Shown here piece after piece: positions 3,122 through 55,349 of a stretch of 63,842 bases of DNA. The notes beneath the pieces are model-generated. The model saw only the letters and a list, made by a program, of their open reading frames with translations, ran no database searches and was not told the origin of the DNA. How positions within the stretch are numbered: the first letter of the stretch is position 1; every line of letters begins with the position of its first letter. Source of the DNA: Oscillospiraceae bacterium (GTDB lineage Bacteria; Bacillota; Clostridia; Oscillospirales; Oscillospiraceae); the NCBI GenBank assembly GCA_009778485.1, contig WRJQ01000003.1:1-63842 (forward strand), written 5' to 3'. Made by a program: the position numbers and the translations under genes.

Positions 3122-4396
3122 CTAGCCGCCTGTCGGCTGCCTGCCCGCGTTTGCGATCATCAGCTTGATTCTGTTTTCCTGGTTTATCCTTGTCGCTCCC
3201 GGGTCATAGTCTATTGCGACGATGTTCGAATCAGGGTAATCGTCTTTCAGCCGCCTGATCATGCCTTTTCCGACAACGTGATTTGGAAGGCACCCGAACG
3301 GCTGCGTGCAGACGATGTTTTTCGTGCCTGTATGGATGAGTTCGAGCATCTCAGCCGTAAGCAGCCACCCCTCGCCCATTTTGTTGCCGTAGCCGAGGTA
3401 GCCGCGGATTAGCTTTTGAAGGTCAGAGAACTTCCCCATCGGCCTGAACGCCGGCTTCGTCTCGACGGCTTCCACCATTCCGCGCTGAAGCCCTTCAATG
3501 TACCGCTGGAATACTCCGGCGACCAGCTTTTTTACCCGGTAACCGCGATAGAGGTCGACGTCGACCACGCGGTTATTTATTTTGAATATCATAAAGTCGG
3601 TCAGGCCCGGCACGACAGGCTCGCAGCCTTCGTCAAGCAGGAACTGCTCCAGCCCGTTGTTACCCAGCGGAGCGTACTTGACATAAATCTCTCCGACAAT
3701 GCCGACTCTTGGTTTGTCCCGCTTATCGCTTGTCTCTATTTTTGAAAAGTCTTCGACGATTTCCACCATCGTTGCTCTCATTTCTTTCTTCCGCAGGCCG
3801 CGCCCCCGCCCAAACATATCCACGAGCCTTTCTGTCCACATAGCTGCGTGAGTGTCGGTCGAGCCTTTTTCCAACTCGTATGGCTTGCATTGGTTGGAAA
3901 GCCACACGATGAGGTCCCCGTAAATCATGCCCGCTGCCAGGCGGCGTATCACCTGCAGCGACAGCCCGAAGCCGGGATTGCTTTCCAGCCCCGAGAGGTT
4001 TACTGAGACTACGGGGATATATGACATGCCTGCTTTCTCAAGCGCTTTACGCAGCAGGTGGATGTAGTTCGACGCCCTGCAGCCTCCCCCTGTTTGCGAT
4101 ATCAGCAGCCCAATCTTATGCACATCGTACTTCCCGCTGTTGATTGCTTCAATGAGTTGGCCTATAACGAGCAGCGCGGGGTAGCATGTATCGTTGTGTA
4201 CGTATTTCAGCCCCGTCTCAACGATGCTTCTGTGGTTCGTTGTGAGCATCTCGATTTTATACCCGTACAACTCAAACACTTTTTTCATCATTGTGAACGT
4301 GACCGGCAGCATCTGCGGCATAAGCAAAGTGTAGTCGCGCTTCATCTCCTTTGTGAAGAGCAGCCTCCCTGTTTTGTCATATACCAGTTGCGCCAT
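3122..4396 (-). CDS. 2-hydroxyacyl-CoA dehydratase-related protein (activase C-terminal part)
   Basis: 424 residues, soluble. The text 'NDTCYPALLVIGQLIEAINSGKYD', 'ISQTGGGCRASNYI' and 'QPFGCLPNHVVGKGMIRRLK' matches the HgdB-like C-terminal segment that in many Clostridia belongs to a single activase-related protein of about 1400 residues. Several Cys suited to an iron-sulfur cluster are present (in TCYPA, GGGCRAS and PFGCLPN). It follows the activase gene after 39 bases on the same strand and is presumably cotranscribed. A strong AGGAGG lies about 20 bases before the ATG. Its function is uncertain: it may be a redox partner of the activase or a dehydratase-like scaffold. Confidence 0.75.
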   Translation of the reverse strand: MAQLVYDKTGRLLFTKEMKRDYTLLMPQMLPVTFTMMKKVFELYGYKIEMLTTNHRSIVETGLKYVHNDTCYPALLVIGQLIEAINSGKYDVHKIGLLISQTGGGCRASNYIHLLRKALEKAGMSYIPVVSVNLSGLESNPGFGLSLQVIRRLAAGMIYGDLIVWLSNQCKPYELEKGSTDTHAAMWTERLVDMFGRGRGLRKKEMRATMVEIVEDFSKIETSDKRDKPRVGIVGEIYVKYAPLGNNGLEQFLLDEGCEPVVPGLTDFMIFKINNRVVDVDLYRGYRVKKLVAGVFQRYIEGLQRGMVEAVETKPAFRPMGKFSDLQKLIRGYLGYGNKMGEGWLLTAEMLELIHTGTKNIVCTQPFGCLPNHVVGKGMIRRLKDDYPDSNIVAIDYDPGATRINQENRIKLMIANAGRQPTGG

Positions 4397-4435: not shown

Positions 4436-7408
4436 TCAGCCGCCTATCGCGGCGATAAGGCTTCGCAGCCTTATTCTCACGGCTCCAAGGTTGTTAATAT
4501 CGTCTATCTTGAGCTGCGTATATAATTTGCCTCCGGACTCAAGTATAGACCGCAGTTCATCGGTCGTTATCGCGTCTGTCCCGCAGCCAAAAGACACAAG
4601 CTGCACAAACTGCATATCGCCGTGTTCGAGGACATAACGCGCGGCGTTGTACATTCGCGCCTGGTACGTCCACTGATTCAACACGCGGCGCGGCTCGCCG
4701 CCCAGCCTGCGCGCGATGGCGTCTTCCGTAATAAGGACGAGCCCCAGCGAAGATATCAGTTCGTCGATTCCGTGGTTTACTTCCGGATCTGAGTGATAAG
4801 GCCTTCCGGCGACGACGAGAATATGCTTGCCTTCCCTCCGCGCGTGCTCGATGTAGCCGTCGGCCACGCTCTCTATCTCGCTCGTAAACTCCGCATACGC
4901 CTTATATGCGGATTTGGCGGCCTTTTTCGTTTCGTTCGCGGGTATTCCAAACTCCTTGTTGAAATACTCTGCGGACTTCCTGATGAAGCCGCGCTTTTTA
5001 TGTAACCCGAAGTATGGAATAAGGAATCTCGCCTTTTTTACCCCCGGGATGTTCGCAGCCAGGAGCTCCGGGTAGTAGGCGACGACCGGGCAGTTGTAGC
5101 TGTTGTCGCTGATGCCTTCGTTGAAGTTGTACGGCATACAGGGCAGGAAAATCGCGTCTGCATCTGCTTCAAGCAGCGATTCTATTTGCCCGTGCATAAG
5201 TTTCGCCGGATAGCAGACGGTATCGGAGGGTATCGTTCGCTGCCCTAATATATATAGTTGCCGCGACGACTCGCGAGACAGCACGACTTCAAAGTTCAGC
5301 TTTGTGAAAAACTCGAACCAGAACGGCAGGTTTTCAAACATGTTCAGCCCAAGGGGGATGCCTACCCTCCCCCGCTCGCCGGTTCCGCTGCCGCTTCCTT
5401 CCATAGAGCGCAGCTTGCCGTATTTATGCTTCATTAGGTTCGGTTCTGACGACGCGCCCGCGCCGAGCGGCTTTGAGCAGCGGTTGCCCGAAATAAATCT
5501 CCTGCCGCCGTCGAACGTGTTGACGGTCATGCTGCAGTTGTTTGTGCAGCCGCCGCACGATACCGGCCTTGCCTCGTGGGTGAAGTTTTTCAGTTCCTCG
5601 CTGCTCAGTAGGGTCGGGGATCTCTCTACGTTTGGCCCGGTTCCGCCTTCCGCGTGACTCGCGCCTCCCGCAGCATCGATTGCGGTCCACGCTGCGCCGT
5701 AGGCTCCCATCAGCTCAGAAATCGCAGGCCGCGTCACTTCGGCGCCAATTTCACGCTCGAACGCCCTCAGCACGGCGTCGTTTAGGAATGTCCCTCCCTG
5801 CACGACAATGCTCCGGCCCAGCTCGTCCGCGCTCGCGGCGCGTATGACTTTGTAAATAGCGTTCTTAACGATAGATATAGAAAGGCCTGCGGAAATAGCT
5901 TCGACCGTCGCGCCGTCTTTTTGCGCTTGCTTGACGCTGGAGTTCATGAAGACTGTGCAGCGCGACCCCAGGTCCGACGGCGCCCCGGCGAAGAGCCCAA
6001 GCTTTGCGAAATCGCCGATTTTGTACCCCAGCGCGACAGCGAAAGTTTCGATAAAGCTGCCGCAGCCGGATGAGCATGCCTCATTGAGCATAATGCTGTC
6101 AACCGCTCCGTTGCGTATCTTAAAGCACTTGACGTCCTGCCCGCCAATGTCGATAATGAAGTCTACGGCAGGCGTGAAGTGCCTTGCCGCGCGCAGGTGC
6201 GCCATCGTTTCCACAATGCCCATGTCGAGGTTGAAAGCGTTTTTTATGAGTTCCTCGCCATATCCCGTCACCGCTGACCCTTTTATCGAAACAGCGCTGC
6301 CGAAGCGGTCATATATTGTTTGCAACTGCTCGAGGATAATCGATACGGGATTGCCTTTATTATTACCGTAGTAAGTATATAGTATAGAACCTTCGGCCGT
6401 GATAAGCACCAGTTTCGTCGTCGTGCTGCCGGCGTCTATGCCGAGGTATGCGTCGCCGGCGTAGGTTTCTGCGTCGGCAGTCGGCGGGGCTGCAGCCGCG
6501 TGGCGCCGCGCGAACGCTTCGTACTCTTCTTGCGTCCGGAAAAGCGGCTCAATTGCGCTCTCCCCTCCTGACTCATCAACCGCGCTTTCGAGTTTGTCCA
6601 TAATGTCCGTAAATGGCTCGGCGTCTTTCCCATTCGCGCACATTGCCGCGCCAATTGCGGCAAAGCATTCTGCATCGAAGGGAAATATGGCGTGCTCGTC
6701 ATCCAGTTCTAGTGATGCGATAAAGCGTTCACGCAACCCCTTCAGGAAGGTCAGCGGCCCCCCCAGGAACACAAGTTTACCCGTTAGCTCGCGCCCCTGC
6801 GCGAGCCCCGCCACGGTTTGATCCACTACTGCCTGGAATATCGAGGCGGCGACGTCTTCTTTTTTCCCGCCCTGGTTGAGAATCGGCTGGATGTCCGACT
6901 TCGCGAATACGCCGCATCTGGACGCGATCGGGTAGATTTTCTCGTGCCGGAGCGAGAGCTCGTCAAGTTGCGGCACCGTGACGTCAAGCAGCGTCGCCAT
7001 CTGATCGATGAATGCGCCGGTGCCACCTGCGCAAGTGCCGTTCATGCGCTCTTCAAGGCCCCCGCCGAAGAAGATGATCTTGGCATCCTCCCCCCCGAGC
7101 TCGATAACCGCGTCCGCATCCGGCAGCCTCTCGCGTACTACAGCCGCAGTCGCGTAGACTTCCTGCACAAAAGGCAACCCCGACGCCTTTGCCACTCCAA
7201 GCCCTGCGGATCCTGTTATTGCGGGGACGGCATGCTGCCCGCCGGAAAACAGGGCGGAGGCGCGGCGAAGCTGCTCCGCAGCCTTCTGCCTCACCAGCGA
7301 GTAGTGACGCTCATACGCCCGGAATAACACCTCGTCCGTATCTGAAAGAACAACTGTCTTGACCGTCGTGCTCCCTATATCTATACCAATGCGCACATGA
7401 TCCTCCAT
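4436..7408 (-). CDS. Tandem BadF/BadG/BcrA/BcrD-type activase ATPase
   Basis: 990 residues. Two ASKHA ATPase modules occur in series: the first opens GIDIGSTTVKTVVL and has NGTCAGGTGAFIDQMA; the second opens GIDAGSTTTKLVLI and has NEACSSGCGSFIETFA. In this family the Cys in those motifs help hold a bridging [4Fe-4S] cluster. A DUF2229-like region follows, with more Cys (VSCGGCTNNCSM). Such enzymes couple ATP hydrolysis to low-potential electron injection into 2-hydroxyacyl-CoA dehydratases or benzoyl-CoA reductases. Start MEDHVRIG is chosen because the promoter at 7431-7459 excludes the upstream Met. The gene is divergent from the transhydroxylase operon. The true substrate enzyme is unknown. 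Confidence 0.85.
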   Translation of the reverse strand: MEDHVRIGIDIGSTTVKTVVLSDTDEVLFRAYERHYSLVRQKAAEQLRRASALFSGGQHAVPAITGSAGLGVAKASGLPFVQEVYATAAVVRERLPDADAVIELGGEDAKIIFFGGGLEERMNGTCAGGTGAFIDQMATLLDVTVPQLDELSLRHEKIYPIASRCGVFAKSDIQPILNQGGKKEDVAASIFQAVVDQTVAGLAQGRELTGKLVFLGGPLTFLKGLRERFIASLELDDEHAIFPFDAECFAAIGAAMCANGKDAEPFTDIMDKLESAVDESGGESAIEPLFRTQEEYEAFARRHAAAAPPTADAETYAGDAYLGIDAGSTTTKLVLITAEGSILYTYYGNNKGNPVSIILEQLQTIYDRFGSAVSIKGSAVTGYGEELIKNAFNLDMGIVETMAHLRAARHFTPAVDFIIDIGGQDVKCFKIRNGAVDSIMLNEACSSGCGSFIETFAVALGYKIGDFAKLGLFAGAPSDLGSRCTVFMNSSVKQAQKDGATVEAISAGLSISIVKNAIYKVIRAASADELGRSIVVQGGTFLNDAVLRAFEREIGAEVTRPAISELMGAYGAAWTAIDAAGGASHAEGGTGPNVERSPTLLSSEELKNFTHEARPVSCGGCTNNCSMTVNTFDGGRRFISGNRCSKPLGAGASSEPNLMKHKYGKLRSMEGSGSGTGERGRVGIPLGLNMFENLPFWFEFFTKLNFEVVLSRESSRQLYILGQRTIPSDTVCYPAKLMHGQIESLLEADADAIFLPCMPYNFNEGISDNSYNCPVVAYYPELLAANIPGVKKARFLIPYFGLHKKRGFIRKSAEYFNKEFGIPANETKKAAKSAYKAYAEFTSEIESVADGYIEHARREGKHILVVAGRPYHSDPEVNHGIDELISSLGLVLITEDAIARRLGGEPRRVLNQWTYQARMYNAARYVLEHGDMQFVQLVSFGCGTDAITTDELRSILESGGKLYTQLKIDDINNLGAVRIRLRSLIAAIGG

Positions 7409-7430
7409 ACTGATTGTTTTTCGCCACCCT

Positions 7431-7459
7431 AAAATAGCATGATTCGAGAAATATTTCAA
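7431..7459 (-). promoter_or_regulatory. Promoter of the activase operon
   Basis: Read on the minus strand: TTGAAA (7459-7454), a 17-base spacer, then TATTTT (7436-7431). The predicted start is near 7425, 17 bases before the ATG at 7408. This fixes the activase start codon and leaves the two divergent promoters about 25 bases apart. Confidence 0.6.
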
Positions 7460-7481
7460 CGTTTTTCCATGTAACTTTTGC

Positions 7482-7511
7482 TTGACAATCATTTACCAGC
7501 ATGGTTAATAT
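7482..7511 (+). promoter_or_regulatory. Promoter of the transhydroxylase operon
   Basis: TTGACA (7482-7487) followed after 18 bases by TAATAT (7506-7511), or after 17 bases by TTAATA. The first gene begins at 7556 behind an AAGGAGG site, leaving a leader of about 38 bases. The divergent activase promoter lies immediately to the left, so the two operons may be co-regulated. Confidence 0.65.
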
Positions 7512-12806: not shown

Positions 12807-12830
12807 GTTAAAATTGAAAGGGGTTTATAC

Positions 12831-13628: not shown

Positions 13629-13650
13629 TTTGCACATCTGTCTGCCTCAA

Positions 13651-13694
13651 AAGCTGCGCATCGGTACGTTTCCGGCGCGCAGCTTCTCTTTTTG
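13651..13694 (+). terminator. Terminator after the SDR gene
   Basis: AAGCTGCGC (13651-13659) pairs with GCGCAGCTT (13677-13685), followed by CTCTTTTTG. It closes the operon that starts at 7556. Confidence 0.75.
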
Positions 13695-13748
13695 CTCAAA
13701 AACACAAAAAAAATACGCAATAACACAAGCCACAACGCAACGCCGCGC

Positions 13749-13777
13749 TTGAAGGGGCAGAGGTCTTATGCTAGAAT
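13749..13777 (+). promoter_or_regulatory. Promoter of the secondary alcohol dehydrogenase gene
   Basis: TTGAAG (13749-13754), 17 bases, TAGAAT (13772-13777). It gives a leader of about 90 bases before the ATG at 13877, which is preceded by GGAGG. Confidence 0.55.
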
Positions 13778-13876
13778 AGCGGTGTGCCGGTGCGTTATAC
13801 ACGACGCAGGGAGCACCACCCTATACCCGGCGAAACCATGGGATATATCCCATCAAAATAACTTCGGAGGTAGTAT

Positions 13877-29666: not shown

Positions 29667-29698
29667 GTCTCTCCCTCCAATATTTGTGTCGATTTGCA

Positions 29699-30472
29699 CT
29701 ACAACCCTGCAGCTTCCAGCTTACGGGCGTTAAAAAGAATATCCCTTGGGCCATCCTCCATAACGCTCCCCTCGCGAATCAGCAAGACACGCGAACAAGT
29801 CTCAGCGGCGAAAGCCATATCGTGCGTCGCAATCAGCTTGCCTTGAGGCAAGCCGGAGACGATCTGCGCAAGATTTCGCTTAGCGCGCGGGTCAAGGTAG
29901 GCGGTCGGCTCGTCAAAGAGCAACAAATCAGGCTTCATCGCAAGCACTGTCGCGATAGCAGCGAGCCGCTTCTCCCCTCCCGAGAGCTTAAGCGGAGAGC
30001 GGTCAGCCAAATGCGCTATCCCGAGGCTTGACAAGGCGGCGTCCACGCGCTGAACCGTCTCGGCTTCTTCGATGCCGAAGCTGCGCGGCCCAAACGCGAC
30101 GTCTTCATAAATGCCGGGCATGAAGAGCTGGTCGTCCGGGTTCTGGAAGACGACTCCCACCCGCGCTCTGAGTTCCCGTAAGGTATCTTTGCCCGTTCGT
30201 TGCGTCAGGACCAGTTCGGGCTTCACAGCGCCGCGCGCTGCTTGCGCAGGCGCGTTTTTTTGCTCGTCCGGACCGGCGGCGCTGCTGTGCAAACTGATTT
30301 CGCCCGCTATCGGCGGCAACACGCCGACAATAGCCAACAGCAACGTAGTCTTCCCCGCTCCGTTTGCGCCTATCAGCGCGACGCTTTCCCCTGCCTCGAT
30401 GCTAAAACTTAAGTCCTCTATCGCGCGTGTGCCGTCCGCGTATTCAACTGACAAGTTACTGACTCTAAGCAT
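29699..30472 (-). CDS. cbiO: ECF metal transporter ATPase
   Basis: 257 residues. Walker A GANGAGKT lies at 35-42, the Q-loop FQNPDDQLF is typical of CbiO, the signature is LSGGEKR, and Walker B LLLFDEPTAYLDP is followed by ATHDM. It powers uptake of cobalt or nickel with CbiM and CbiQ. There is an extra stretch of about 25 residues between Walker A and the Q-loop (about 62-90, Ala/Pro/Gln-rich, PDEQKNAPAQAARG) compared with the usual protein. It lies between cbiQ and the DUF362 gene on one transcript. Confidence 0.92.
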   Translation of the reverse strand: MLRVSNLSVEYADGTRAIEDLSFSIEAGESVALIGANGAGKTTLLLAIVGVLPPIAGEISLHSSAAGPDEQKNAPAQAARGAVKPELVLTQRTGKDTLRELRARVGVVFQNPDDQLFMPGIYEDVAFGPRSFGIEEAETVQRVDAALSSLGIAHLADRSPLKLSGGEKRLAAIATVLAMKPDLLLFDEPTAYLDPRAKRNLAQIVSGLPQGKLIATHDMAFAAETCSRVLLIREGSVMEDGPRDILFNARKLEAAGL

Positions 30473-30487
30473 GTTACAAATAACTCC

Positions 30488-31264
30488 TCAGTACAATGGT
30501 ACTACCCGCAGGAGTACAGACGGAACGCACACAATCAGCATAACGATAATATCCGACGGCTTAATCCTCCTTCGGGCTGGCGGAATGTGTTTTAACGAGT
30601 AGCCGCGGCAGCACATTGCCGCGTGGACGCGCTCCGCCCTGTCGAATCCGCGCAGAAGCAGATGCCCGGCAAAAGACCCCATATGTTTCATTTCAAGAGC
30701 CTTTTTCTTACCGGAGCGCAGCCTGTAAGCGATTATCATCGAGCGTACTTCCTCAAGCAGCACGCCGACATAGCGGTAGGTCATCTCGAAAACCATAACA
30801 AAAACAGAAGGCGCGCGCATCCTCCGAAGCTGGGCGGTAAGCTCGGTAAGAGGAGTCGTTGCCACCAGTATGAGCGCGGCCATGACGCACAAGTACATTT
30901 TCAGCATAATAGTCGCAAGTGACACAATGCCCAGGCTTACAGTCACGCCGCCAAGCGTAAACGCCGCTGTTGTGTCAAGTATCGCATTGGTTATGCCGGC
31001 GAACAAGCAAAACGGCAGAGCTATCAGCACGCGCGACAGCAGCAGCTTGTACGGCGATTCAGAGAGCGCCATCATGATAAACGGGTAGAAAAGATACGGC
31101 GCTGCGCGTATGAAATCGTATCTGCCGTACGATGCTACTGTCACGATAAAAACAAGCGACGCTACCAGCTTCGCCAGCGGATGCAGGCGGTGGACGGCCG
31201 TCCGCCCGGCAGCAAGGCTCTCCAGCGCGCGAAGTTCGCGAACGCGAGCGCCGGCGTCAGGCAT
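30488..31264 (-). CDS. cbiQ: ECF metal transporter T-component
   Basis: 258 residues from MPDAGARVRELRALES, overlapping the end of cbiM by 8 bases (an upstream Met 22 codons earlier would lie deeper inside cbiM). About five membrane helices are followed by coupling helices with the family motifs RRMRAPSVFVMVFEMTYRYV and LLLRGFDRAERVHAAMCCRG (A-R-G type). It connects the CbiO ATPase to CbiM. Cobalt and nickel systems share this subunit. Confidence 0.9.
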   Translation of the reverse strand: MPDAGARVRELRALESLAAGRTAVHRLHPLAKLVASLVFIVTVASYGRYDFIRAAPYLFYPFIMMALSESPYKLLLSRVLIALPFCLFAGITNAILDTTAAFTLGGVTVSLGIVSLATIMLKMYLCVMAALILVATTPLTELTAQLRRMRAPSVFVMVFEMTYRYVGVLLEEVRSMIIAYRLRSGKKKALEMKHMGSFAGHLLLRGFDRAERVHAAMCCRGYSLKHIPPARRRIKPSDIIVMLIVCVPSVLLRVVPLY

Positions 31265-32351
31265 CGGCTCCGGCTGCTTCCCTCTTCCTCTTCTTAACAA
31301 GAGAAATCGAGAGCCCGGCGGCGCCCGCAACTACGAATGTAATGGCTGCGCCAATAAGGCCCGAAGCGGATGTACCGGCCGCGTTCTCCCCATCGTATGA
31401 AAAAGAGTAATCAGGTAAAACGGCAGTTGCGTCACGAATGCCGGCCGCGCGGACATGCAATGCTCCCGCTGTACTCGACTCCTCCGGGTGCCCGGACTGT
31501 TCATCCGCCTGAGCGGCGCCCGGCACTACTGCGGCTGCGCCCGGCGCTTCCGCGGCGGTTTTTTCCAGTGTGCCTTCAACCGCCCACTCAAGGCCGTCCG
31601 GATTCTTCGATGCTAGGAGCGACAAGGCTCCCCCCGCCAGGACAGCTAAAACAGCTATCGCGGCCACCGTCTTTTTCACCGGGATACCGTCAAGCTTCCC
31701 GCCCGCTAATGAAGCAGTAACTACTTCAGGACGTGCTCTATGCACAAAGCACAGCACCGCTGCTGTGACTATCCCCTCCACTATCCCAATGACCAGGTGT
31801 ATCGGCAGCATAAGCGCAGTAAAGGTTCCGACCGGCAACTGCGCCACACCGGATAGCATCACTTGCAGCACTACGCAGGATGCCCCAAGCACGAGGGCTG
31901 CCGTTGCGGAGATGACAGAGGCCGCGCTCAGCCGCCTGTAGCTGACTGCGGTCCTAAAAATGGGTTTGAATACCAGCGGGTACACCAGCAGGCACGGAAT
32001 GACGCCAAGATTAAAAATGTTACAGCCGAGCGCAAGCAGTCCGCCATCCGCAAAAAAGAGGCATTGGATAATCAAAACCGCCGTCATTGATAAGAAGGCC
32101 GGAACGCCGCCAAGCAACCCCGCAAGGAGTATCCCTCCCCCGATGTGCCCGGATGAGCCGGTGCCGGGTATTGTGAAGTTTATCATCTGCCCGGCAAAAA
32201 CCAATGCGCCCGCCACTCCGATGAGCGGTACTTTCTTCTCGCTGAACTCATCTTTCTTTACTCGCGCCACCGATATCCCCACAGCAGCGACGCCGACTGC
32301 GTCCGCAGCCAGCGCTACCACCGGGGATAGCAGCGCATCCGCCATGTGCAT
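31257..32351 (-). CDS. cbiM: Fused CbiM-CbiN cobalt/nickel permease
   Basis: 364 residues. The first 210 are CbiM: MHMADALLSP, where the N-terminal Met and His2 bind metal in this family, and SSGHIGGGILLAG with the second His. The last 150 contain a helix, NPDGLEWAVEGT (a CbiN hallmark), a long low-complexity Ala/Glu linker and a final helix, so CbiN is fused to CbiM. It is the first gene of cbiM-cbiQ-cbiO-DUF362. No cobalamin riboswitch signature was seen upstream, which leaves nickel as likely as cobalt. The 204-bp family 2 element lies in its upstream region. Confidence 0.9.
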   Translation of the reverse strand: MHMADALLSPVVALAADAVGVAAVGISVARVKKDEFSEKKVPLIGVAGALVFAGQMINFTIPGTGSSGHIGGGILLAGLLGGVPAFLSMTAVLIIQCLFFADGGLLALGCNIFNLGVIPCLLVYPLVFKPIFRTAVSYRRLSAASVISATAALVLGASCVVLQVMLSGVAQLPVGTFTALMLPIHLVIGIVEGIVTAAVLCFVHRARPEVVTASLAGGKLDGIPVKKTVAAIAVLAVLAGGALSLLASKNPDGLEWAVEGTLEKTAAEAPGAAAVVPGAAQADEQSGHPEESSTAGALHVRAAGIRDATAVLPDYSFSYDGENAAGTSASGLIGAAITFVVAGAAGLSISLVKKRKREAAGADA

Positions 32352-32387: not shown

Positions 32388-32591
32388 TAGGAGCCTTGGA
32401 CAAAAGTCGCGTCATTAGATAGGTGCCGATTGTTTTCGCCTGTTTTGCAGGGTTTACGCTGAACAAAGTTCAGCGGGGGCGAATACTTGGCTGTATTTAA
32501 CCGAAAATCGCGCAAAACAGGCGGAAAGAGGCGGTGCAAAGCCGGCAGCGCCGGCTCTAGATGATGGCGGGAGTTTTGTCCGAGGCTCCTA
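32388..32591. mobile_element. Family 2 MITE-like element with nested hairpins
   Basis: 204 bp. The ends are inverted: TAGGAGCCTTGGACAAAA (32388-32405) and TTTTGTCCGAGGCTCCTA (32574-32591), with one mismatch in 18. Inside, GCCTGTTTTGC pairs with GCAAAACAGGC, GCTGAACAAAGTTCAGC is a tight hairpin and AGCCGGCAGCGCCGGCT is another. There is no reading frame of note. Its right end supplies the stop codon of the neighbouring HoxU-like gene. It occupies nearly the whole gap between that gene and cbiM. Confidence 0.8.
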
Positions 32592-33389
32592 AACTCCGAA
32601 TGTTTTTGCCATGGTGTCCGTCATCGCCTTACGCCTGCAGTCAGGGCATAGATCGGGCGGTTCAGTGCCGGCGTGCACCGACGCGCGATAATGCTCAAAG
32701 GCTGTCCCTGTGACAGCGCCGCAGCGCGAACAGCGCGTAAGCGTTAGTGTCTTGTTCCAAATGGTGCGCTCGTCGCCATCCTCCGCGACTTCAATCGCGC
32801 CCGTCGGGCATACAGCCGCGCAACTCCCGCAGCCAACGCAGACGGTCGCGGGTTCGTCATACGGAGTCGATATCTTCTTCGCAGTCCCCCTGCCAACCGA
32901 AGAAATGGCACCGGTACCAAGGGTTTGGCATGCCTTTGCGCACAAACCGCAGAGGATACACTTCCCATCTCCCGACTGTACTTCATAACGCGCGCCGTCA
33001 GGAGCCCCGAATTCCCTGCAAAGCTCTGCTATCTCCTCACTTGCGGGAGCGCTTGCGCGCAACAGGGCCAGCAAAATCCCTCTGTTCCTGCGGACACGCT
33101 CGCTGTCCGTATAGACGACGCATTCCGCTTCCACAGGGTAAATACATGCGGCGACAATCTCTCGGCGGGGCTTCTTATCACTGAAGCTCCCGCTCTGAGC
33201 GCCTTCTCCGCGTCCGGTATCGCCTCTGCCTGTCTCCACCTCAACAGTGCATAGGCGGCAACAGCCCTGCCCCTGCAAACCCTCATGGTGGCAAAGGGAC
33301 GCAATCCGAATCCCGGCTCGCGTCGCAATATCAAGCAGGTACTCTCCCCGCTCACAGGAGACTTCCTTTCCGTCGATCGTTACAATCAA
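32589..33389 (-). CDS. HoxU/NuoG-N-terminus-like iron-sulfur subunit
   Basis: 266 residues. An N-terminal [2Fe-2S] ferredoxin fold (MIVTIDGKEVSCERGEYLLD; Cys in LCHHEG, CCRLC and AACIYPV) is followed by two [4Fe-4S] motifs (CILCGLCAKACQT and CVGCGSCAAVCPT). A C-terminal CSRCG..LCPDCRRK pair looks like a zinc ribbon, which is not usual in HoxU. It is the last gene of the six-gene oxidoreductase operon and overlaps the NuoF-like gene by 4 bases. It probably wires the flavin subunit to the tungsten subunits. The stop codon lies in the family 2 element. Confidence 0.85.
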   Translation of the reverse strand: MIVTIDGKEVSCERGEYLLDIATRAGIRIASLCHHEGLQGQGCCRLCTVEVETGRGDTGRGEGAQSGSFSDKKPRREIVAACIYPVEAECVVYTDSERVRRNRGILLALLRASAPASEEIAELCREFGAPDGARYEVQSGDGKCILCGLCAKACQTLGTGAISSVGRGTAKKISTPYDEPATVCVGCGSCAAVCPTGAIEVAEDGDERTIWNKTLTLTRCSRCGAVTGTAFEHYRASVHAGTEPPDLCPDCRRKAMTDTMAKTFGV

Positions 33390-35062
33390 ACCCGCAAATC
33401 CCCCTTTCCGGCTTTGCTCGATGTCACGCCTGTACCGTCTTTCTTAGAACCTGTCAGTTCCCGGCATACTCCACCCGGGCAGCGTTTTTCCAGGATATGC
33501 GCGTTGTACTCGTCCCTGAAATGCTCAATCGTCGTCAGTACGGGGTTCGCCGCAGTCTTCCCGAGAGCGCATAGAGATGAGTCGATAAGAAGAGCGCAGA
33601 TCTCTTCGAGAGCCTCCAAGTCACCCGGGAGGCCGCGGCCTTCGCATATTCCGGTCAGTATCGACAGCATTTGCCTCAGCCCTTCGCGGCAGGGCGCGCA
33701 TTTCCCGCAGCTTTCTTCCGCAAGGAAGTTTGTGTAATAACGCGCGACCTCAACCATGCAGCTCCTGTCGTCCATGACGATCATTCCGCCGGACCCCATC
33801 ATAGCCCCGTAGTCCGTAAGGGTGTCAAAATCTACCGGCAGGTCAAGCAGTTTCTCCGGAATGCAGCCTCCCGAAGGGCCCCCCGTCTGCACAGCCTTAA
33901 ATGGGCGATCGCCTACAATGCCGCCTCCGATATCGAATATCAGCCTTCTCAGCGTGACTCCCATCGGGACTTCAACAAGCCCCGTTCTTTTCACCTTTCC
34001 CACAAGGGCGAACACTTTCGTGCCCTTGCTGCTATCCGTGCCCAGTAAAGCGAAGTTTTCGCCGCCTCCGCCAATGATCACCGGAATGTTCGCGAAGGTC
34101 TCAACATTGTTCAAAACAGTAGGCTTATCCCACAGGCCGCGCTGCGCCGAGCGAACATACTTGGCGCGCGGTTCACCGACGCGCCCCTCGATAGAGGCCA
34201 TCAGAGCTGTGCTTTCCCCGCATACAAATGCGCCTCCGCCCCGAACGGCCGCGAGTCGCAGTTTTTTCCCTGAGCCCATTATCGAGTCGCCCAGAATGCC
34301 CGCCTCTTCAGCGTCGCGAATCGCCTTTGTTACGTGTTTGAGCGCGAGCTCATACTCGTCCCTGATGTAGAGGAACCCTTCCTGCGCGCCAATTGCCAGC
34401 GCGCATATTGCCATGCCTTCAAGAACACAGTGAGGATCGCCCTCGAGGGTCGAGCGGTCCATAAAAGCGCCGGGATCCCCCTCGTCGCCATTGCAGATTA
34501 CATATTTCGGATACTCCCCGTACTGCATCGCCGCGCGCCACTTGCTGCCCGTCGGGTACCCCGCTCCGCCGCGCCCGCGCAGCCCTGAGGCCTCCACTTC
34601 GGATATAATCGCCTCAGGCGTCATCTGCAGCGCGCGCTCAAGCGCCCGGTAACCTCCGCAATCAGTATAATCCGCGATGCTTTGCGGGTCTATCTGCCCT
34701 ATATTGCGCAGGACTATCTTGTGCTGTGGCGCGTAGAAGGGGTTATCCGCCTGCCGTAATACCGGCTTATCGTTGTCATCCCTGTAAAGCAATCGTTCCA
34801 GCGGCTCAGCGCCTATTGAAGCGGCAATGTCCGCCGCATCCTCCGGTTTGACCTTGTAGTAAGATATGTCGTCCGGCATCACGCGCAAAATGGGCCCGTT
34901 TTCGCAAAAACCATTGCAGCCTGTCTCTTTCACCTCGGTTTCGCCCGTAGCCTCAACTGCGACATCCGTGCCGGCAAGGGCGACGCGAAGAGCATCGGCG
35001 ACGGCGAGACTGCCGTTGGCGATGCATCCCGTTCCGCAGCAAACCAGTATACTCCTGTTCAA
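33386..35062 (-). CDS. NuoF-like NAD(H)/FMN subunit
   Basis: 558 residues. A thioredoxin-like [2Fe-2S] domain at the N-terminus (CCGTGCIANGS..CNGFCENGP) precedes the NuoF core: GLRGRGGAGYPTGSKW (NADH/FMN loop), CNGDEGDPGAFMDR and VRGGGAFVCGEST. The SCGKCAPCREG motif with a later Cys gives the [4Fe-4S] cluster. The polyferredoxin tail found in many HydB proteins is missing. In this operon it should pass electrons between NAD(H) and the tungsten aldehyde oxidoreductase, with ferredoxin as a possible second acceptor (Bfu/HydB-type bifurcating family). It overlaps both neighbours by 4 bases. Confidence 0.9.
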   Translation of the reverse strand: MNRSILVCCGTGCIANGSLAVADALRVALAGTDVAVEATGETEVKETGCNGFCENGPILRVMPDDISYYKVKPEDAADIAASIGAEPLERLLYRDDNDKPVLRQADNPFYAPQHKIVLRNIGQIDPQSIADYTDCGGYRALERALQMTPEAIISEVEASGLRGRGGAGYPTGSKWRAAMQYGEYPKYVICNGDEGDPGAFMDRSTLEGDPHCVLEGMAICALAIGAQEGFLYIRDEYELALKHVTKAIRDAEEAGILGDSIMGSGKKLRLAAVRGGGAFVCGESTALMASIEGRVGEPRAKYVRSAQRGLWDKPTVLNNVETFANIPVIIGGGGENFALLGTDSSKGTKVFALVGKVKRTGLVEVPMGVTLRRLIFDIGGGIVGDRPFKAVQTGGPSGGCIPEKLLDLPVDFDTLTDYGAMMGSGGMIVMDDRSCMVEVARYYTNFLAEESCGKCAPCREGLRQMLSILTGICEGRGLPGDLEALEEICALLIDSSLCALGKTAANPVLTTIEHFRDEYNAHILEKRCPGGVCRELTGSKKDGTGVTSSKAGKGDLRV

Positions 35063-35538
35063 TCTATAACTCCCTCTGCCCGGATGGCGTCAAAAACCTC
35101 ATGGAGCGATTCCGGCGCGATCTTCCCGTAATATGTGCCATCAACGACCATTACCGGCGCGAGGGCGCATGCGCCAAGGCAGTTGACGAGTTCCAGAGAA
35201 AACTCCCCGTCGTCGGTCATCTCGCCGGGGCCGATCCCCAAGGCGCGGTAAATTCCATCGAGGACGTTCGTGCCTGCGCGTATATGGCAGACAGTCCCGT
35301 CGCACACTTTGATAATATGCTTCCCGCGCGGAGTCAGGCTCAGCGCCTTGTAAAACGTGGCAATGGCGTAAAGCTCTGACAGCGGCCGCTCCAGATGCCC
35401 GGACAGCGCGTCCAGGCCTTCGCGCGGCACGTAACCGAACTGCCGCTGCATATCCTGCATCACCGCCAGCGTGTACATCGCGTTGCGCGGATAAGTATTC
35501 AGCAGCGCGTTGATCTCCTCCCCGGCTATGATTCTCAT
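35059..35538 (-). CDS. NuoE-like [2Fe-2S] subunit
   Basis: 159 residues from MRIIAGEEINALL, picked because GGAGGGTGA precedes it and the longer start would run into the MoaD-like gene. A helical N-terminus (YVPREGLDALSGHLERPLSE) is followed by a thioredoxin-like ferredoxin fold with DGTVCHIRAG, LVNCLGACALAPVM and VVDGTYYGKI. The first cluster region shows a single Cys before HIRAG, so check the fourth ligand. It is the partner of the NuoF-like protein (4-base overlap). Confidence 0.9.
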   Translation of the reverse strand: MRIIAGEEINALLNTYPRNAMYTLAVMQDMQRQFGYVPREGLDALSGHLERPLSELYAIATFYKALSLTPRGKHIIKVCDGTVCHIRAGTNVLDGIYRALGIGPGEMTDDGEFSLELVNCLGACALAPVMVVDGTYYGKIAPESLHEVFDAIRAEGVID

Positions 35539-35542
35539 AAAG

Positions 35543-35818
35543 TCACCCTCCTGCGACCATCGGGAAAACACAAATAGTGTCACTCTCGCTCAGCGGAGTA
35601 TCCATGTTGCCCAGATGTTGCACGTTCCTGCCGTTGACAAGGATAATCGCGTTTTCGCCTATCCCGGTTCCGTCCGGCGTGTACAGCATTGCGCGCATAG
35701 TGGCGCCGTAGCGCTCCGCCAGCAGCGCGAGCATTGCCCTGATGTCGGGCTGAGCCGGGATAGACGTTTGCTTGACTCTTGTGACGTCGCGGTATGTCGC
35801 GAAGAACTTGACGTTCAT
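35543..35818 (-). CDS. MoaD/ThiS-like ubiquitin-fold protein
   Basis: 91 residues: MNVKFFATYRDVTRVKQ.. and the C-terminal ..DTICVFPMVAGG. The Gly-Gly end is the site that carries thiocarboxylate sulfur in MoaD-type proteins, so it likely donates sulfur to the tungstopterin cofactor. MoaD-like genes commonly sit beside tungsten oxidoreductase genes. It lies 7 bases after the aldehyde oxidoreductase gene and 4 before the NuoE-like gene. No other pterin-synthesis gene is in the window. Confidence 0.9.
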   Translation of the reverse strand: MNVKFFATYRDVTRVKQTSIPAQPDIRAMLALLAERYGATMRAMLYTPDGTGIGENAIILVNGRNVQHLGNMDTPLSESDTICVFPMVAGG

Positions 35819-35825
35819 CTGCCTC

Positions 35826-37637
35826 TTATTGTCCGACGCTCTTTATCCCGAGAGACAAGTCTTTCTCAGGGGTCGGGACGCCCTCCGCGTTCCAGCCGCG
35901 CAGTTCGTAGTATTCTCCGAGCATGGAGTAGAGTTCCGCAACTCTCCCCGCCGCGGGGCCGCTTGGGAGTTTCTCTCGCAGCAGGCGTGGAGGCAGAGTA
36001 TCCTTCTCGACGCCGGCGGCGATGTTAAAGTGCTTTTCGAGATTCCAGACGCGTTCTCCCTTGAGCAGTATTTCCTCGTCCGTCTCATCCGTGCCGACAG
36101 CTTCGCGGTACTGGGCGGCGATCTCAGGCAAGCCCAGCCCGAACGTTGTGAACAGGCATAGCCCGGCTGAGTCGATCAGAGCGGTAAGATCCTGGAAGAG
36201 TTTCAAGAGCGCAGGTTTGCCTTCGGTCTCAAGCGGGTCGACTTTGACAGGCACTCCGAGTACTTCAGGGCTCGTCAGGTAGCCGCGCACATGGCAGCCC
36301 CCGCGGTTGCTCGTGGCATACTCCAGCGCCATCCCCTGCAGTGCGCGGCCGTCATACGCGGGCATCTCCTGCTTCTTAACGCTCATCGAGAGCTCCGGGT
36401 GGCCGTACTTTTCGGCCATTCTGTAAGAACCGAGCGCGAGAGTCTTGCCAAACCCTTCGCCCTTTGCCGTGGCTTCGGTGAGATCGACTATAGCGTGCGC
36501 GTCGCCGAAGCGCAGCGCAAAGCCTATATCGGACTCGGGAATCGCGCCCATCTCGGACAGTTCCATCGCGCAGGCGATTGTGGACCCCATCGTGATCGGA
36601 TCCATGCCATACTCGTTGCACAAGAAGTTAGCTTTGCATATAGCCGCGAGATCGCTTACGCCGCATGCCGCGCCGTATGCCCAACCTGCTTCGTACTCCG
36701 GGCCTTCCCCGGAGCTCTTAAAGGGGCCGTCGCTGACTTTTGTGACCCGGCCGCAGTCGATGGAGCACCCGAAGCAGCCTTTATTCTTAACAAGATACTT
36801 CTCTGCAAGAGCTTCCCCGCCTGTTGCGTCAGCCTCCGGGAATACGCTTCCGTCACGCCAGTTGCGCGTAGGCAGCGCGCCGCTCTCATTAATGATGTTT
36901 ACAAGCACTTGCGTGCCGAGCGCCGCGAGCCCGGTTCCGCCGACAGGGTGCGCCTTCAGCTTTGCGCGCGCGTCCGTCAGCGCGTCGAAAAACTGCTCAG
37001 GCCTTGCTACTGTCGCGGGCCCTGTCCCGCGTACAACGACTGCTTTCAGCTTTTTGACCCCCATGACCGCTCCCAGCCCGCCGCGCCCGGCGGCGCGGTG
37101 TTTGTCGTTGAGCACACCGGCGAATAAGCAGCCATTTTCACCCGGAGGGCCTATGCAGGCGATACGGAATGACTCGCCGCATTCCTCGTTCAGCGAGTCT
37201 GTTGTCTCGTAAACTGTCTTACCCCAAAGGGTAGATGCGTCACGCAGTTCGACTGTGTCGTCGTTTATGTACAAGTAGACCGGCTTCTTGCTCGCCTTTT
37301 CAAATATGATACCGTCATACCCCGCGTACTTAAGCTCCGGCCCGAAGTAACCGCCGGCATTTGCCGCTCCTATCGTCCCCGTCAAGGGCGCTTTCGCGAC
37401 GACTTCATAGCGCCCTGCCGAAGCGGCGCCTGTGCCGGTGAGCGGTCCTGTCATGAAGATCAGGTTGTTCTCGGGAGATAAGGGTTCGACCTTTGGGTCG
37501 ACTTCATCGCAGAAGTACTTTGTGCCAAGGCCTCTCGCGCCTACGTAGTCGTGCGCGTCTTGTACGTTAAGCGGTTCACGCTTGATCGTGCCTTCTGAAA
37601 GGTCAACTCTGAGTATCACTCCTGTCCATGCGTTCAT
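35826..37637 (-). CDS. Tungsten aldehyde ferredoxin oxidoreductase, catalytic subunit
   Basis: 603 residues, the standard length for the AOR family. The [4Fe-4S] ligands fall at Cys288, Cys291, Cys295 (CFGCSIDC) and Cys494 ([11 protein letters not shown]), the same numbers as in Pyrococcus AOR. Bis-pterin contact motifs include [27 protein letters not shown] and [11 protein letters not shown] with the catalytic-region His449. It oxidises aldehydes to acids, or runs in reverse at low potential. With the polyferredoxin gene (4-base overlap) and the NuoEF/HoxU-like genes it should form a multi-subunit NAD/ferredoxin-linked complex like the bacterial WOR type. Confidence 0.93.
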
Positions 37638-38113
37638 ACGGCATTCTCCTCTCCAAACACGTCACGGAAGTTTTGCGCTACTGCCTTTTTCCGGTCGAGG
37701 CTCTCAGCAGGGTCTACGTACTGGATCGCTCCTGAAGGGCAGTATTTCGCGCATTTCGGGTCGCCTCCGCAAAGATCGCACTTAAATACTTTCTTCGTAA
37801 TCGGCGAGTAGCTGATGTTGCCGAGCGGGCATACGCTCATGCACATTTTGCAGACTATGCACTTCTCCGGATCCATGACAACTGCCTCGTGTTCATCGCG
37901 CGATATCGCGCCAACCGGGCAGACCTTGAGACAGCAGGCTTCTTCGCATTGCATGCACATCACCGGCACCGACGTCATGGCAGCTTCGTAGTGTATTACG
38001 GATACCGATGACTGTTTTGGGTTGAATGTCCCGTTGTGCCCAAAGGAACACATCAACTCGCAGGTACGGCAGGACACGCACTTTTCAGGTTTGACGATTA
38101 GTTGTTTTGACAT
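37634..38113 (-). CDS. Polyferredoxin electron-transfer subunit of the oxidoreductase
   Basis: 159 residues, with four [4Fe-4S] motifs built from [45 protein letters not shown] and [18 protein letters not shown]. Small proteins of this type (WOR-S/AorA-like) partner tungsten oxidoreductases and hand electrons on to NuoEF-type subunits. It is the first gene of the six-gene operon. GGAG lies 9 bases before its ATG. A stronger orphan Shine-Dalgarno sequence and a hairpin lie further up in the leader. Confidence 0.92.
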
Positions 38114-39197: not shown

Positions 39198-42100
39198 ATG
39201 TTCAAGCTATATTGCAGAACCTTTCAACTGATAATGAAATACGCCGCATACTTTCTACCTTGGCGCAAGCCGGCGCTGCTTGAAGGAGAAAACTCAGTCA
39301 CGCAACTACCTGCGCGCATCCGGGAAAAAGGCATCGCAAGCGTCCTGTTGGTTACAGACTCCGGGATAATGTCGCTCAGGCTGTGCGACGCGCTGCTCGA
39401 AGCGTTGCGAAACGCAGGAATCAACGTCGCGGTATATGATAAAACCGTGCCTAACCCGACTATCGACAACATCGAGGAAGCTCTCGCAATGTACAAGGAA
39501 GGAAGCTGCGGCGGAATCATCGCTGTTGGCGGAGGCTCATCCATGGACTGCGCAAAAGGCGTAGGGGCGCGCGTCGCGAGGCCGCGAAAAAGCATCTCGC
39601 GAATGAAAGGCTTGCTAAAAGTCATGCGGCGCCTGCCTGCGCTCTATGCCGTACCGACAACCGCAGGGACCGGCAGCGAAGCGACTGTGGCGGCAGTTGT
39701 CGTAGACGCCAAGACGCATGAAAAGTACGCGCTTATGGATCCGGCCCTTATACCGCGCGAAGCGGTGCTCGACCCGCTCCTGACCGTCGGTCTGCCAAAA
39801 TCGATCACCGCGACGACCGGCATGGACGCGCTGACGCACGCGGTCGAGGCATATATCGGGCGCAGCAACACGCGCGAGACGCGCGATATGGCGCGCAAAA
39901 CAGTAAAACTCGTCTTTGAGAACCTGTACGCGGCATACAATGACGGCAGCGACACAACAGCGCGCGCGAACATGCAGCGCGCCGCATTCTACGGCGGAGT
40001 CGCCTTCACCCGCGCATATGTAGGCAACGTTCACGCTGTCGCTCACACGCTGGGCGGCATGTACTCAGTGCCGCACGGGCTGGCCAACGCCGTAATACTG
40101 CCATATATACTCGACGATTACGGCGAAAGCATATATGTGCGGCTGTCAGAGCTCGCGGACCTGGTCAATCTCCCCGGCAGCACCATTGAGCACAAAGCTA
40201 AGTCCTTCATCAAAGCAATACGGGACATGAACGAGAGCATGGGCATCCCGGTCACGATAGACGGCATCGAAGAAAACGACGTCCCGCTCATGGCAGAGCG
40301 CGCATATCGCGAGGCTAACCCTACGTATCCCGTGCCCCGGATATTCTCCCGCGCGGATTTCATCAGCGTCTATCATCGGCTTATGGGCAAATCGGGCCGG
40401 CACGGGTACGCGGGTAAAATGGCCGAAGTCAACCTCACAACAGGGGAAATCGCACAGTTCATGCCGCAAAAAGACGATCTGCTGAAATATATAGGGGGCA
40501 AGGGCCTCGCGGCGAAAATCCTCTATGACAAACTGTACTCCGGGGCCGGCGCGCGCCCGGGCAAGGTCGAAGCGTTTTCGCAGGAGAACCCTATCGTCAT
40601 CACAACTTCGCCCTTGAACGGTTCTGCCGCCCCGAGTTCCTCGCGGTTCAACATATCCACAATATCGCCGCTTACCGGGCTGCTTGTCTCATCAAGCTGC
40701 GGGGGCGATTTCGGCCTGCACCTGAAACGCGCGGGATACGACGCCCTGCTCATCACCGGGAAGAGCCCCGCAAAGGTCTTCCTGCGCGTGAACGCTTCCG
40801 GAGTGGAGATATGCGACGCAGGCGATATATGGGGGTTAAGCACGAGCGAAGCGCAACAGGCAATGGGGAAAAACGGGACGCTTGCGATCGGCGTCGCAGG
40901 AGAGAACCTTGTCAGGTACGCAAGCGTCGCGAGCCAGGAGCGCATGGCGGGACGCGGCGGAATAGGCGCCGTATTCGGGTACAAGGGTCTAAAAGGAATC
41001 GTCGCCGAGGGCAACGCGGCGATAACGATGCCTGACAGCGACGAGTTTAGGAGTTTCAACAAGAAGTGGATTGGCAAGCTGCGGAAGCATGTGCTCACCG
41101 GTCAGCAGTTACCCGAGCTTGGCACGGCGGCTTTGTTGAGGAAAATGCAAGACAGGGGCTTGCTTGCCACCGCCAACTATTCCGCAGGGCGCTTTGACAA
41201 GTACGACAGCATCAGCGGCGAGACTCTGCGCGAGAAGCACCTGATAAAAAACAAGGGCTGCCTTACCTGCCCCATCCAATGCGGCAGGCTGGTATCGCAC
41301 GAGGGTAAAGCGATAAAAGGCCCCGAGCTTGAGACGCTGGGACTGCTCGGCGCAAACATCATGAACGATGATTTGAGCCTGATTATAAAGCTCAACCGGC
41401 TCTGCGACGAGTACGGGCTGGACACGATGTCGTTCGGCGGCTCAGTTGCTTTCGCGATGGAGCTCTGCGCGAAAGGCCTCTGGGATAACGGCCTCAAGTT
41501 CGGACAGCGCGAGGGCCTCGAAGACCTGCTCAGCGCCGTCGCGCATCGCGAAGGCATAGGCGGCGACATTGCGGAAGGCGTACGCCTTTTATCTGAAAAG
41601 TATGGAGGCAAAGACTTCGCTATCCATGCAAAAGGCATGGAGCTGGCAGCCTATGAACCTCGCGCGGCTCAGGGGATGGGTCTCGGCTACGCTACCGCGA
41701 ACAGGGGCGGATGCCACTTAAACGGCGGATACATGGTCGTGCTGGAAGGGCTGGGTATGCGGGTCAGCGGCAGGACGACGCGCGGAAAGGCCGGTTTGAC
41801 CGTGTTCTTTCAGGACTTGATGGAGGCGGTCTCGGCCGCCGGGAGCTGCCTGTTCACCACTTACGCGGTCTTCCCGTCGGCTGTCGTAAGAAACCCAAAC
41901 AGCGTGTTAGCCCGCATAGTCTATGCGCTCATGCCGCTCCTTGGCAGCCCCGCCGCTTTCATCCACAACCACGCGAAGTTGCTGGGCGTCAACGCGCGCA
42001 GCGTCGTCCCTCACCCGTATGCATATATGCTGGTTACCGGCAGCGATATGAGCATCGGGCGTTTCGTGAAGGCAGGAGAACGCATATATAACCTCGAGCG

Positions 42101-42308
42101 TTTGATAAACAACCTTCAGGGCTTGACCGGCGGCGATACCCTGCCTTCCAGGCTGACGTCCGAGCCCCAGTCCGAAGGCGACGCAAAGAGCCGTGTCCGG
42201 CTCGATCGCATGCTGAAAAAGTACTATCGCGTACGCGGCTGGGACAGCACGGGCGCACCCGGCAGGAAAAGGCTGGCAAGGCTGGGAGTCCTGGAAAAAA
42301 GTAAATAA
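39198..42308 (+). CDS. Fusion of iron alcohol dehydrogenase and aldehyde ferredoxin oxidoreductase
   Basis: 1036 residues in one uninterrupted frame. Residues about 25-398 are a group III iron alcohol dehydrogenase: GGGSSMDCAKG (111-121) for NAD(P), and metal ligands Asp210, His214 (GMDALTHAVEAY), His283 and His293 (VAHTLGG, VPHGLAN). Residues about 403-1036 are a complete AOR-family module starting at the usual HGYAGKMAEVNLTTG. Cluster ligands are Cys688, Cys691, Cys695 and Cys884, and His840 lies in GGCHLNGG. There is almost no linker. The protein should convert alcohol to acid, or the reverse, through an aldehyde held on one chain, linking NAD(P) and ferredoxin/W-pterin chemistry. Partners are unknown; the WOR operon is next door. 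Confidence 0.9.
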   Translation: MFKLYCRTFQLIMKYAAYFLPWRKPALLEGENSVTQLPARIREKGIASVLLVTDSGIMSLRLCDALLEALRNAGINVAVYDKTVPNPTIDNIEEALAMYKEGSCGGIIAVGGGSSMDCAKGVGARVARPRKSISRMKGLLKVMRRLPALYAVPTTAGTGSEATVAAVVVDAKTHEKYALMDPALIPREAVLDPLLTVGLPKSITATTGMDALTHAVEAYIGRSNTRETRDMARKTVKLVFENLYAAYNDGSDTTARANMQRAAFYGGVAFTRAYVGNVHAVAHTLGGMYSVPHGLANAVILPYILDDYGESIYVRLSELADLVNLPGSTIEHKAKSFIKAIRDMNESMGIPVTIDGIEENDVPLMAERAYREANPTYPVPRIFSRADFISVYHRLMGKSGRHGYAGKMAEVNLTTGEIAQFMPQKDDLLKYIGGKGLAAKILYDKLYSGAGARPGKVEAFSQENPIVITTSPLNGSAAPSSSRFNISTISPLTGLLVSSSCGGDFGLHLKRAGYDALLITGKSPAKVFLRVNASGVEICDAGDIWGLSTSEAQQAMGKNGTLAIGVAGENLVRYASVASQERMAGRGGIGAVFGYKGLKGIVAEGNAAITMPDSDEFRSFNKKWIGKLRKHVLTGQQLPELGTAALLRKMQDRGLLATANYSAGRFDKYDSISGETLREKHLIKNKGCLTCPIQCGRLVSHEGKAIKGPELETLGLLGANIMNDDLSLIIKLNRLCDEYGLDTMSFGGSVAFAMELCAKGLWDNGLKFGQREGLEDLLSAVAHREGIGGDIAEGVRLLSEKYGGKDFAIHAKGMELAAYEPRAAQGMGLGYATANRGGCHLNGGYMVVLEGLGMRVSGRTTRGKAGLTVFFQDLMEAVSAAGSCLFTTYAVFPSAVVRNPNSVLARIVYALMPLLGSPAAFIHNHAKLLGVNARSVVPHPYAYMLVTGSDMSIGRFVKAGERIYNLERLINNLQGLTGGDTLPSRLTSEPQSEGDAKSRVRLDRMLKKYYRVRGWDSTGAPGRKRLARLGVLEKSK

Positions 42309-54054: not shown

Positions 54055-54094
54055 GTACCGCTATGCTCCATTTTCAAGTTCCTGCATATAATCT

Positions 54095-55270: not shown

Positions 55271-55349
55271 TTCGTTCATCCTCCCATTTGCTCTTGTTGC
55301 TGCTAGATACGCATTCCGGTCCCGTAATTACCGGGAGCCTTGAAGCCGG

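Follow-up and report, generated by a model that had tools for sequence, protein, structure and literature searches.

The AdhE protein is a single chain in which an iron-type alcohol dehydrogenase (ADH) shares an aldehyde with a second enzyme, the aldehyde domain coming first, having the aldehyde dehydrogenase (ALDH) fold and depending on CoA and NAD. Among the tungsten-containing oxidoreductases (WORs), the Class I enzymes, such as the Pyrococcus aldehyde oxidoreductase (AOR), consist of WorL alone with ferredoxin as carrier (PMC13328260). In Desulfofundulus kuznetsovii, an ADH (AEG16455) and an AOR (AEG16454) serve methanol oxidation as separate proteins (PMC10907483). The present work concerns a gene at positions 39198..42308 (+ strand) of contig WRJQ01000003.1 from the Oscillospiraceae bacterium assembly GCA_009778485.1 (positions 1 to 63,842, hereafter "the window", meaning the whole 63,842-nucleotide stretch), which joins an iron-type ADH and a tungsten-type AOR in one polypeptide. 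Its parts come from known families; the single chain appears to us to be a new domain architecture, a functional analogue of a reversed AdhE with a tungsten partner. We tentatively propose, with confidence a little short of even, that it is a bifunctional enzyme made of two fused operon partners, clearing mainly long-chain aldehyde near the membrane.

The gene begins with ATG and comprises 1036 codons plus the stop, and its frame has no internal stop. The original prediction, made from the letters alone, had described it as one frame holding a complete iron-type ADH and a complete tungsten-type AOR, and the Pfam matches agree, all four lying far over the cut-off. The ADH domain covers residues 28-395 (39279..40382, +), with Fe-ADH (PF00465) at residues 28-193 (152 bits) and ADH_Fe_C (PF25137) at residues 204-395 (158 bits). 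The AOR half is formed by AFOR_N at residues 406-605 (40413..41012, +; 201 bits) and AFOR_C at residues 621-1030 (41058..42287, +; 378 bits). The two meet where they had been said to meet, at about residues 396-405 (MGKSGRHGYA; 40383..40412, +), the place at which the tandem relatives L026, L028 and L029 described below have a stop codon. Third-position G+C is alike in the two halves (0.68 and 0.73), and Foldseek on a predicted model agrees with the PDB-based family assignment of both. This AlphaFold model, before which two outlier alignment rows were omitted, has a mean pLDDT of 73.3 overall and gives a poor AOR core, where the 10-residue means are 46-61 for residues 641-720 and 29-54 for residues 781-860.

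When the ADH half was aligned to 3bfj (1,3-propanediol oxidoreductase), whose iron ligands we take to be Asp198, His202, His267 and His281, the Asp-His-His-His set was found present as Asp210, His214, His279 and His293. Three of these residues had been named in the original prediction; its fourth, His283, aligns with the non-ligand His271 of 3bfj, and His279 replaces it. The domain carries GGGSSMD at residue 111 and VTDSG at residue 52, and the latter, by a rule that we assume to hold, points to NAD as cofactor, suggesting that the ADH half is NAD-linked. The nearest solved ADH structures are propanediol, ethanol and methanol dehydrogenases, about 28-35% identical (PDB). Upstream of the domain, the model predicts an amphipathic helix at residues 2-19 (39201..39254, +) with a KLYCRxFQ-like motif, in a segment that the alignment showed to be common in the ADH clade. 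The hydrophobic moment of residues 3-20 is 0.52, a value reached by 2.1% of the protein's 18-mers. In the YhhN fusions considered below the KLYCRxFQ-like segment directly follows the membrane domain, and for this reason it would be placed at the membrane, contact of the helix with the membrane being possible.

Members of the AOR family carry two DxxGLx pterin motifs, of which the first is kept in the window protein (DEYGLD at residue 737) and the second is altered to SAAGSC (residues 879-884; 41832..41849, +), the corresponding motif being DSAGLC in Pyrococcus AOR. The latter enzyme (1aor) is the best PDB match of the C-terminal half. Alignment confirmed the four cluster cysteines 688, 691, 695 and 884 given in the original prediction, all within AFOR_C, and showed that the second-shell residues Thr243, Glu313, Tyr427 and His448 (PfAOR numbering; list from PMC13328260) are all kept. 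Two other positions differ: Tyr312 is replaced by Leu (by Val in L029) and Asp489 by Ser. After Cys884 there is an insertion, residues 892-946 (41871..42035, +), partly hydrophobic and exceeding its counterpart in Pyrococcus AOR by about 43 residues. Ser stands at the Asp489 position in all aligned clade members covering that site, including the unfused L026, L028, L029 and L037, and the insertion of about 43 residues is likewise found in these four. Since they are common to unfused relatives, the Tyr312 and Asp489 changes and the insertion mark the AOR clade, not the fusion.

Compared with the Class I WORs, the window AOR has in common AFOR_N and AFOR_C, the four cluster cysteines and the four second-shell residues, and differs in standing behind an ADH, in its altered second pterin motif and in its insertion. 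The chain is more than WorL, and no separate WorS gene lies directly beside the fused gene. Compared with AdhE, the ADH precedes its partner, which here is a tungsten enzyme for free acid/aldehyde; the chain gave no Aldedh match and its domain order is reversed. A MoaA-type cofactor gene was detected in 4/5 fused genomes, the one in which it was not found being the window's own (64.5% complete), and a MoCF-type gene in 5/5, in support of a working tungsten or molybdenum enzyme. An ADH-AOR fusion was not named in open-access titles and abstract starts, UniProt/InterPro domain listings lying outside this search, nor in the available portions of five AOR papers (PMC10816221, PMC9295118, PMC13328260, PMC12096430, PMC12727526).

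The same in-frame fusion was found in six further assemblies: the genomes G002, G004, G006 (locus L042) and G016 (L027), and those of loci L024 and L025, with 58-79% identity to the window in the ADH and 57-67% in the AOR. L024 and L025 hardly differ and could belong to one species. Together with L027 and L042 they derive from metagenome-assembled genomes whose isolate codes match the termites Neocapritermes taracua (Nt197) and Embiratermes neotenicus (Emb289) (PMC7024585). The G004 fusion runs to the contig end, and the single TGA in the G006 match is its terminal stop, leaving an open frame of 1025 amino acids (aa). The genome to which the window belongs has no second full-length match. Of the 19 genomes of the genus (G000-G018), 5 have the fusion, G007 has the ADH alone, and G015 has only an AOR fragment beginning at a contig edge. 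Among the matches listed for samples of 391 class and 398 phylum genomes (the window's own among them), no other intact fusion was seen; scoring covered the two best candidates of each genome, and fusions that are less common or more distant may have escaped.

In near relatives the two genes stand in tandem, separated by 6 bp (L026), 7 bp (L028) and 5 bp (L029, Desulfosporosinus metallidurans OL), counting from mechanically assigned starts. The L029 pair is 61% (ADH) and 59% (AOR) identical to the window protein over nearly the full length and in the same order, and its AOR has the same insertion and SxxGxC motif; it differs in being two proteins. At the junction the unfused ADHs terminate in ..IKE-stop, the AOR starting with ..(G/A)Y(A/T)G(K/R); of six fused junctions compared, five have ..L(M/L)G(K/N)SGxxGY(A/T)GK, that of G004 being different (..LMTQSEHFTLPGS). 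The fused ADHs formed one clade (98/93) in the ADH tree, with the unfused ADH of G007 joining next (100/99), and the fused AORs formed one clade (100/99) in the AOR tree, with the tandem AORs nearest; both trees exclude L032 and duplicate loci, and the AOR tree also two distant AORs. L032 (6001-7200), the ADH relative of Robertmurraya yapensis, has an in-frame stop that splits it into two open frames, of 293 aa and 105 aa; in R. kyonggiensis the gene is uninterrupted. Because near relatives have tandem genes only 5-7 bp apart, the fusion probably arose by loss of the stop between operon partners. One fusion event from an operon is the simplest reading, with G007 either preserving the unfused state or having undergone a later loss. 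Among the phylum matches listed, spans covering both domains and containing stops occurred in G667 (by sequence, the L026 genome), G752, G732, G538, G572 and G670, which suggests that tandem ADH-AOR arrangements recur; G667 and G752 are the two that were read. The operon context of the fused gene was dropped as a functional clue, since its conserved neighbours in four fused genomes are housekeeping genes (uvrC-, rsmD- and coaD-like, named by eye).

The view in the original prediction that the two families act on consecutive steps and are usually separate proteins is supported. In seven further loci (L026, L028, L029, L046, L047, L103 and L104) an unfused AOR of the window clade adjoins the ADH. 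The two genes are convergent in L047 and have a ThiS-like gene between them (by eye) in L104; in L102 a clade AOR is paired with an ADH of another clade. A ThiS-like gene also follows the L029 pair (Pfam), and such a gene, WorX, accompanies some Class I WORs (PMC13328260). Neighbourhoods were further searched with tblastn around 23 unfused ADH relatives (46-67% identity, outside Bacillales, without neighbouring AOR), a count that omits L056, L102, L108, the second ADH of L107 (31-35% identity) and 10 Bacillales loci. A NAD-type ALDH-family protein adjoins the ADH in 16 of the 23, the query being that of L049 and the others being 51-59% identical to it, with Pfam Aldedh confirmed for L049 and L100; in our own reading these neighbours look class-3-like. 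The ADH and ALDH genes are convergent in L053, seven relatives (L045, L050, L054, L055, L097, L101, L107) have no ALDH neighbour, and a MarR-type gene lies beside the ADH in 7/23. In L100 (genome G286, a YhhN-ADH-ALDH chain) and related Clostridia ADH-ALDH pairs, some of which carry YhhN, the ADH is 47-55% identical to that of the window, with the ALDH-family protein instead of the AOR. Because of the 16 ALDH-bearing relatives, AOR and NAD-type ALDH seem interchangeable as ADH partner, the AOR replacing the ALDH. That the ADH pairs with an aldehyde-oxidising enzyme of either fold provides strong circumstantial evidence that ADH and partner share an aldehyde. In L186 (G692) and L187 (G845), a Fe-ADH of seemingly another clade (by eye, methanol-dehydrogenase-like) stands upstream of an ordinary AOR with a stop between them; the unusually long AOR-match frames of these genomes, once read, were ordinary AORs of 641 and 606 aa.

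A clue to the identity of this aldehyde comes from YhhN, a family whose lysoplasmalogenase activity, described for rat TMEM86B and a mycobacterial member, frees fatty aldehyde (PMC9052158). YhhN is fused N-terminally to the ADH in G380 (L097), G397 (L074) and G286 (L100), and a YhhN gene directly follows the ADH in the genus mate G007; the calls were made with Pfam for L097 and L100, and with a profile built here for the L074 ADH frame and for the G007 neighbour, the latter also with Pfam (L045). The L100 gene (5455-8703) is a triple fusion, YhhN-(Fe-ADH)-Aldedh, of 1083 aa, which may lead within one chain from lysoplasmalogen to a fatty acid or alcohol. A search for YhhN gave 52 places, three within ADH frames, in 44 of the 391 class genomes; a chosen set of 29 genomes gave 8 places, spread over 7 genomes. 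In two of 40 other YhhN neighbourhoods (L137 of G009 and L148 of G296) an AOR adjoins YhhN on the same strand; these AORs are 55% identical mutually and only 28% identical to the fused AOR. The two pairs (L137:4080-6780, genes 49 bp apart; L148:4755-7374, 43 bp apart) have opposite gene order, and a ThiF/MoeB-like gene (by eye) precedes that of L148. Altogether, ADH or AOR is linked to YhhN in 6 of the 44 YhhN neighbourhoods inspected (60 places in all). No paper linking YhhN with ADH and ALDH was found in the open-access literature.

As for the lipid itself, PlsA is a marker of bacterial plasmalogen synthesis (PMC9702350, PMC12838417). The window contains a PlsA-like gene (BcrAD_BadFG + DUF2229; 4436..7492, -), a candidate plasmalogen synthase subunit, adjoined by a candidate PlsR of 424 aa (3122..4396, -) with a weak DUF2229 match just under the cut-off. 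The two genes (3122-7492, -) together span 4.37 kb, close to the 4.2 kb reported for the plsA-plsR fragment of Clostridium perfringens. PlsA-like genes were present in 24/25 genomes tested and in 305/391 class genomes.

Taken together, the membrane-near long-chain aldehyde enzyme is favoured because YhhN is fused to or beside the ADH, and beside two other AORs. In the proposed mechanism, the ADH face would convert aldehyde to alcohol with NADH, or alcohol to aldehyde, and the AOR face, of the single-subunit kind, would oxidise aldehyde to acid and pass the electrons to ferredoxin. The main substrate would be a long-chain (fatty) aldehyde, for example one freed from lysoplasmalogens, with the N-terminal helix and the AOR insertion holding the enzyme near the membrane. 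Such an enzyme may be redox-flexible and mainly aldehyde-clearing, because both exits from the aldehyde run downhill; that aldehyde reduction does so follows from the aldehyde/alcohol potential. A more specific and more doubtful version, which we offer as a speculative possibility, is an AdhE-like membrane chain that would split plasmalogen-derived fatty aldehyde between an NADH/alcohol exit and a tungsten/ferredoxin/acid exit, possibly with intramolecular transfer of the aldehyde, the hand-over without release that the original prediction had put forward.

Several observations weigh against this proposal. YhhN was detected in only 2/5 fused genomes (G002 and G006) and not in G004 (98% complete), G016 (92%) or the window's own, and none lies beside the fused gene in the window. 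At the thresholds used, 38 of the 44 inspected YhhN neighbourhoods have no ADH, AOR or ALDH partner. The 10 Bacillales loci of the ADH clade lack an AOR or adjacent ALDH (in L041 an ALDH match of 31% lies at a distance of about 2 kb). PlsA-like genes are not enriched with the ADH clade (15/23 class genomes with an ADH match of at least 43%, against 305/391, by eye), which removes one possible support for a plasmalogen substrate and fits the presence of YhhN also in bacteria without plasmalogens (PMC9052158). All through the aligned AOR clade, other residues stand at the Tyr312 and Asp489 positions, a change that could mean altered chemistry. Finally, because the other-clade ADHs of L186 and L187 stand in tandem with ordinary AORs, the pairing itself does not imply fatty substrates.

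Other explanations were considered. The original prediction had suggested an acid reductase, either alcohol-forming or detoxifying. Detoxification fits better and is retained here as aldehyde clearing, with YhhN suggesting a more specific substrate. In an alcohol-forming carboxylic acid reductase, the AOR would use reduced ferredoxin to turn a free acid into aldehyde, which the ADH would take on to alcohol with NADH, free aldehyde staying low; this is possible and not favoured, and we consider it unlikely. The AOR-ADH route is established on separate proteins (PMC10816221), and the AFOR of Clostridium autoethanogenum reduces acetate with CO oxidation and aldehyde removal (PMC12727526). Acid reduction is uphill, since the acetate/acetaldehyde couple has an E0' of -580 mV (PMC12727526), and it is in the uphill direction that a fusion would be most useful. 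However, the ADH relatives have NAD-type ALDH-family proteins and the aldehyde-producing YhhN as partners, which argues that the aldehyde is the entry compound. Oxidation of short-chain alcohols such as methanol or ethanol for energy, by the ADH with NAD+ and then by the AOR with ferredoxin, also seems an improbable main role. In Desulfosporosinus, whose members are sulfate reducers, an ADH and an AOR of the window's clades stand in tandem, and Fe-ADHs of another clade are in tandem with AORs in two other Bacillota (L186, L187). D. kuznetsovii uses its ADH and AOR, of consecutive accessions, for methanol (PMC10907483), and methanol and propanediol dehydrogenases are among the nearest solved ADH structures, but these are distant at the identities given above, and the YhhN linkage and the hydrophobic additions better suit larger substrates.

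It could also be imagined that one half alone is catalytically active, the other being a structural remnant or having a changed function. The Asp489 to Ser change in the second pterin motif and the Tyr312 to Leu change speak for this, but changes at both positions are common to the unfused tandem relatives, and the cluster cysteines and second-shell residues are kept. In addition, both halves differ from L024 mostly at third codon positions (206/313 and 334/594 differences), less markedly so across the short junction (14/29), and we regard this alternative as very improbable. As to an assembly artefact or a missed stop at the junction, the window assembly is 64.5% complete and in 82 contigs, and the original prediction would have read absence of the fusion from every other genome as a sign of such an error; this explanation was rejected, its likelihood being negligible, because the six other assemblies carry the fusion in frame and with different junction DNA.

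Some other genes of the window deserve mention. One gene away from the fused gene, a set at 32589-38113 (-) consists of a ferredoxin-like subunit, a second AOR and NuoE-, NuoF- and NuoG-like genes in the order S-L-C-B-A, and resembles an operon for an electron-bifurcating Class IV tungsten oxidoreductase. It is adjoined by CbiM-, CbiQ- and ABC-type cobalt-uptake-like genes and a DUF362 ferredoxin protein (28545-32351, -). At 8041-14938 (+), genes for a molybdopterin enzyme, an Fe-S subunit, a thiolase, an SDR and a zinc ADH stand in a row; the molybdopterin enzyme weakly matches pyrogallol hydroxytransferase in the first domain of the latter, and the row is perhaps a trihydroxybenzene breakdown cluster. 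An F420-0:gamma-glutamyl ligase-family protein is encoded beside an Orn/DAP/Arg decarboxylase-family gene at 52756-55279 (-), an odd setting.

According to a 2026 survey, a defined physiological role is on record for at least one member in only five of 92 clades of tungsten oxidoreductases (PMC13328260). The natural fusion identifies the reaction with which that of the AOR is paired, and the links to YhhN point to a substrate that can be tested; if the proposed aldehyde-clearing function is true, it would give a physiological role to this tungsten-enzyme clade. Considered with the YhhN-ADH, YhhN-ADH-ALDH and YhhN-AOR sets, it would also define a bacterial fatty-aldehyde salvage module, of which we found no description. 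If right, the chain would be a ready-made acid/aldehyde/alcohol biocatalyst, and tungsten enzymes would take part in the lipid-aldehyde turnover of gut anaerobes.

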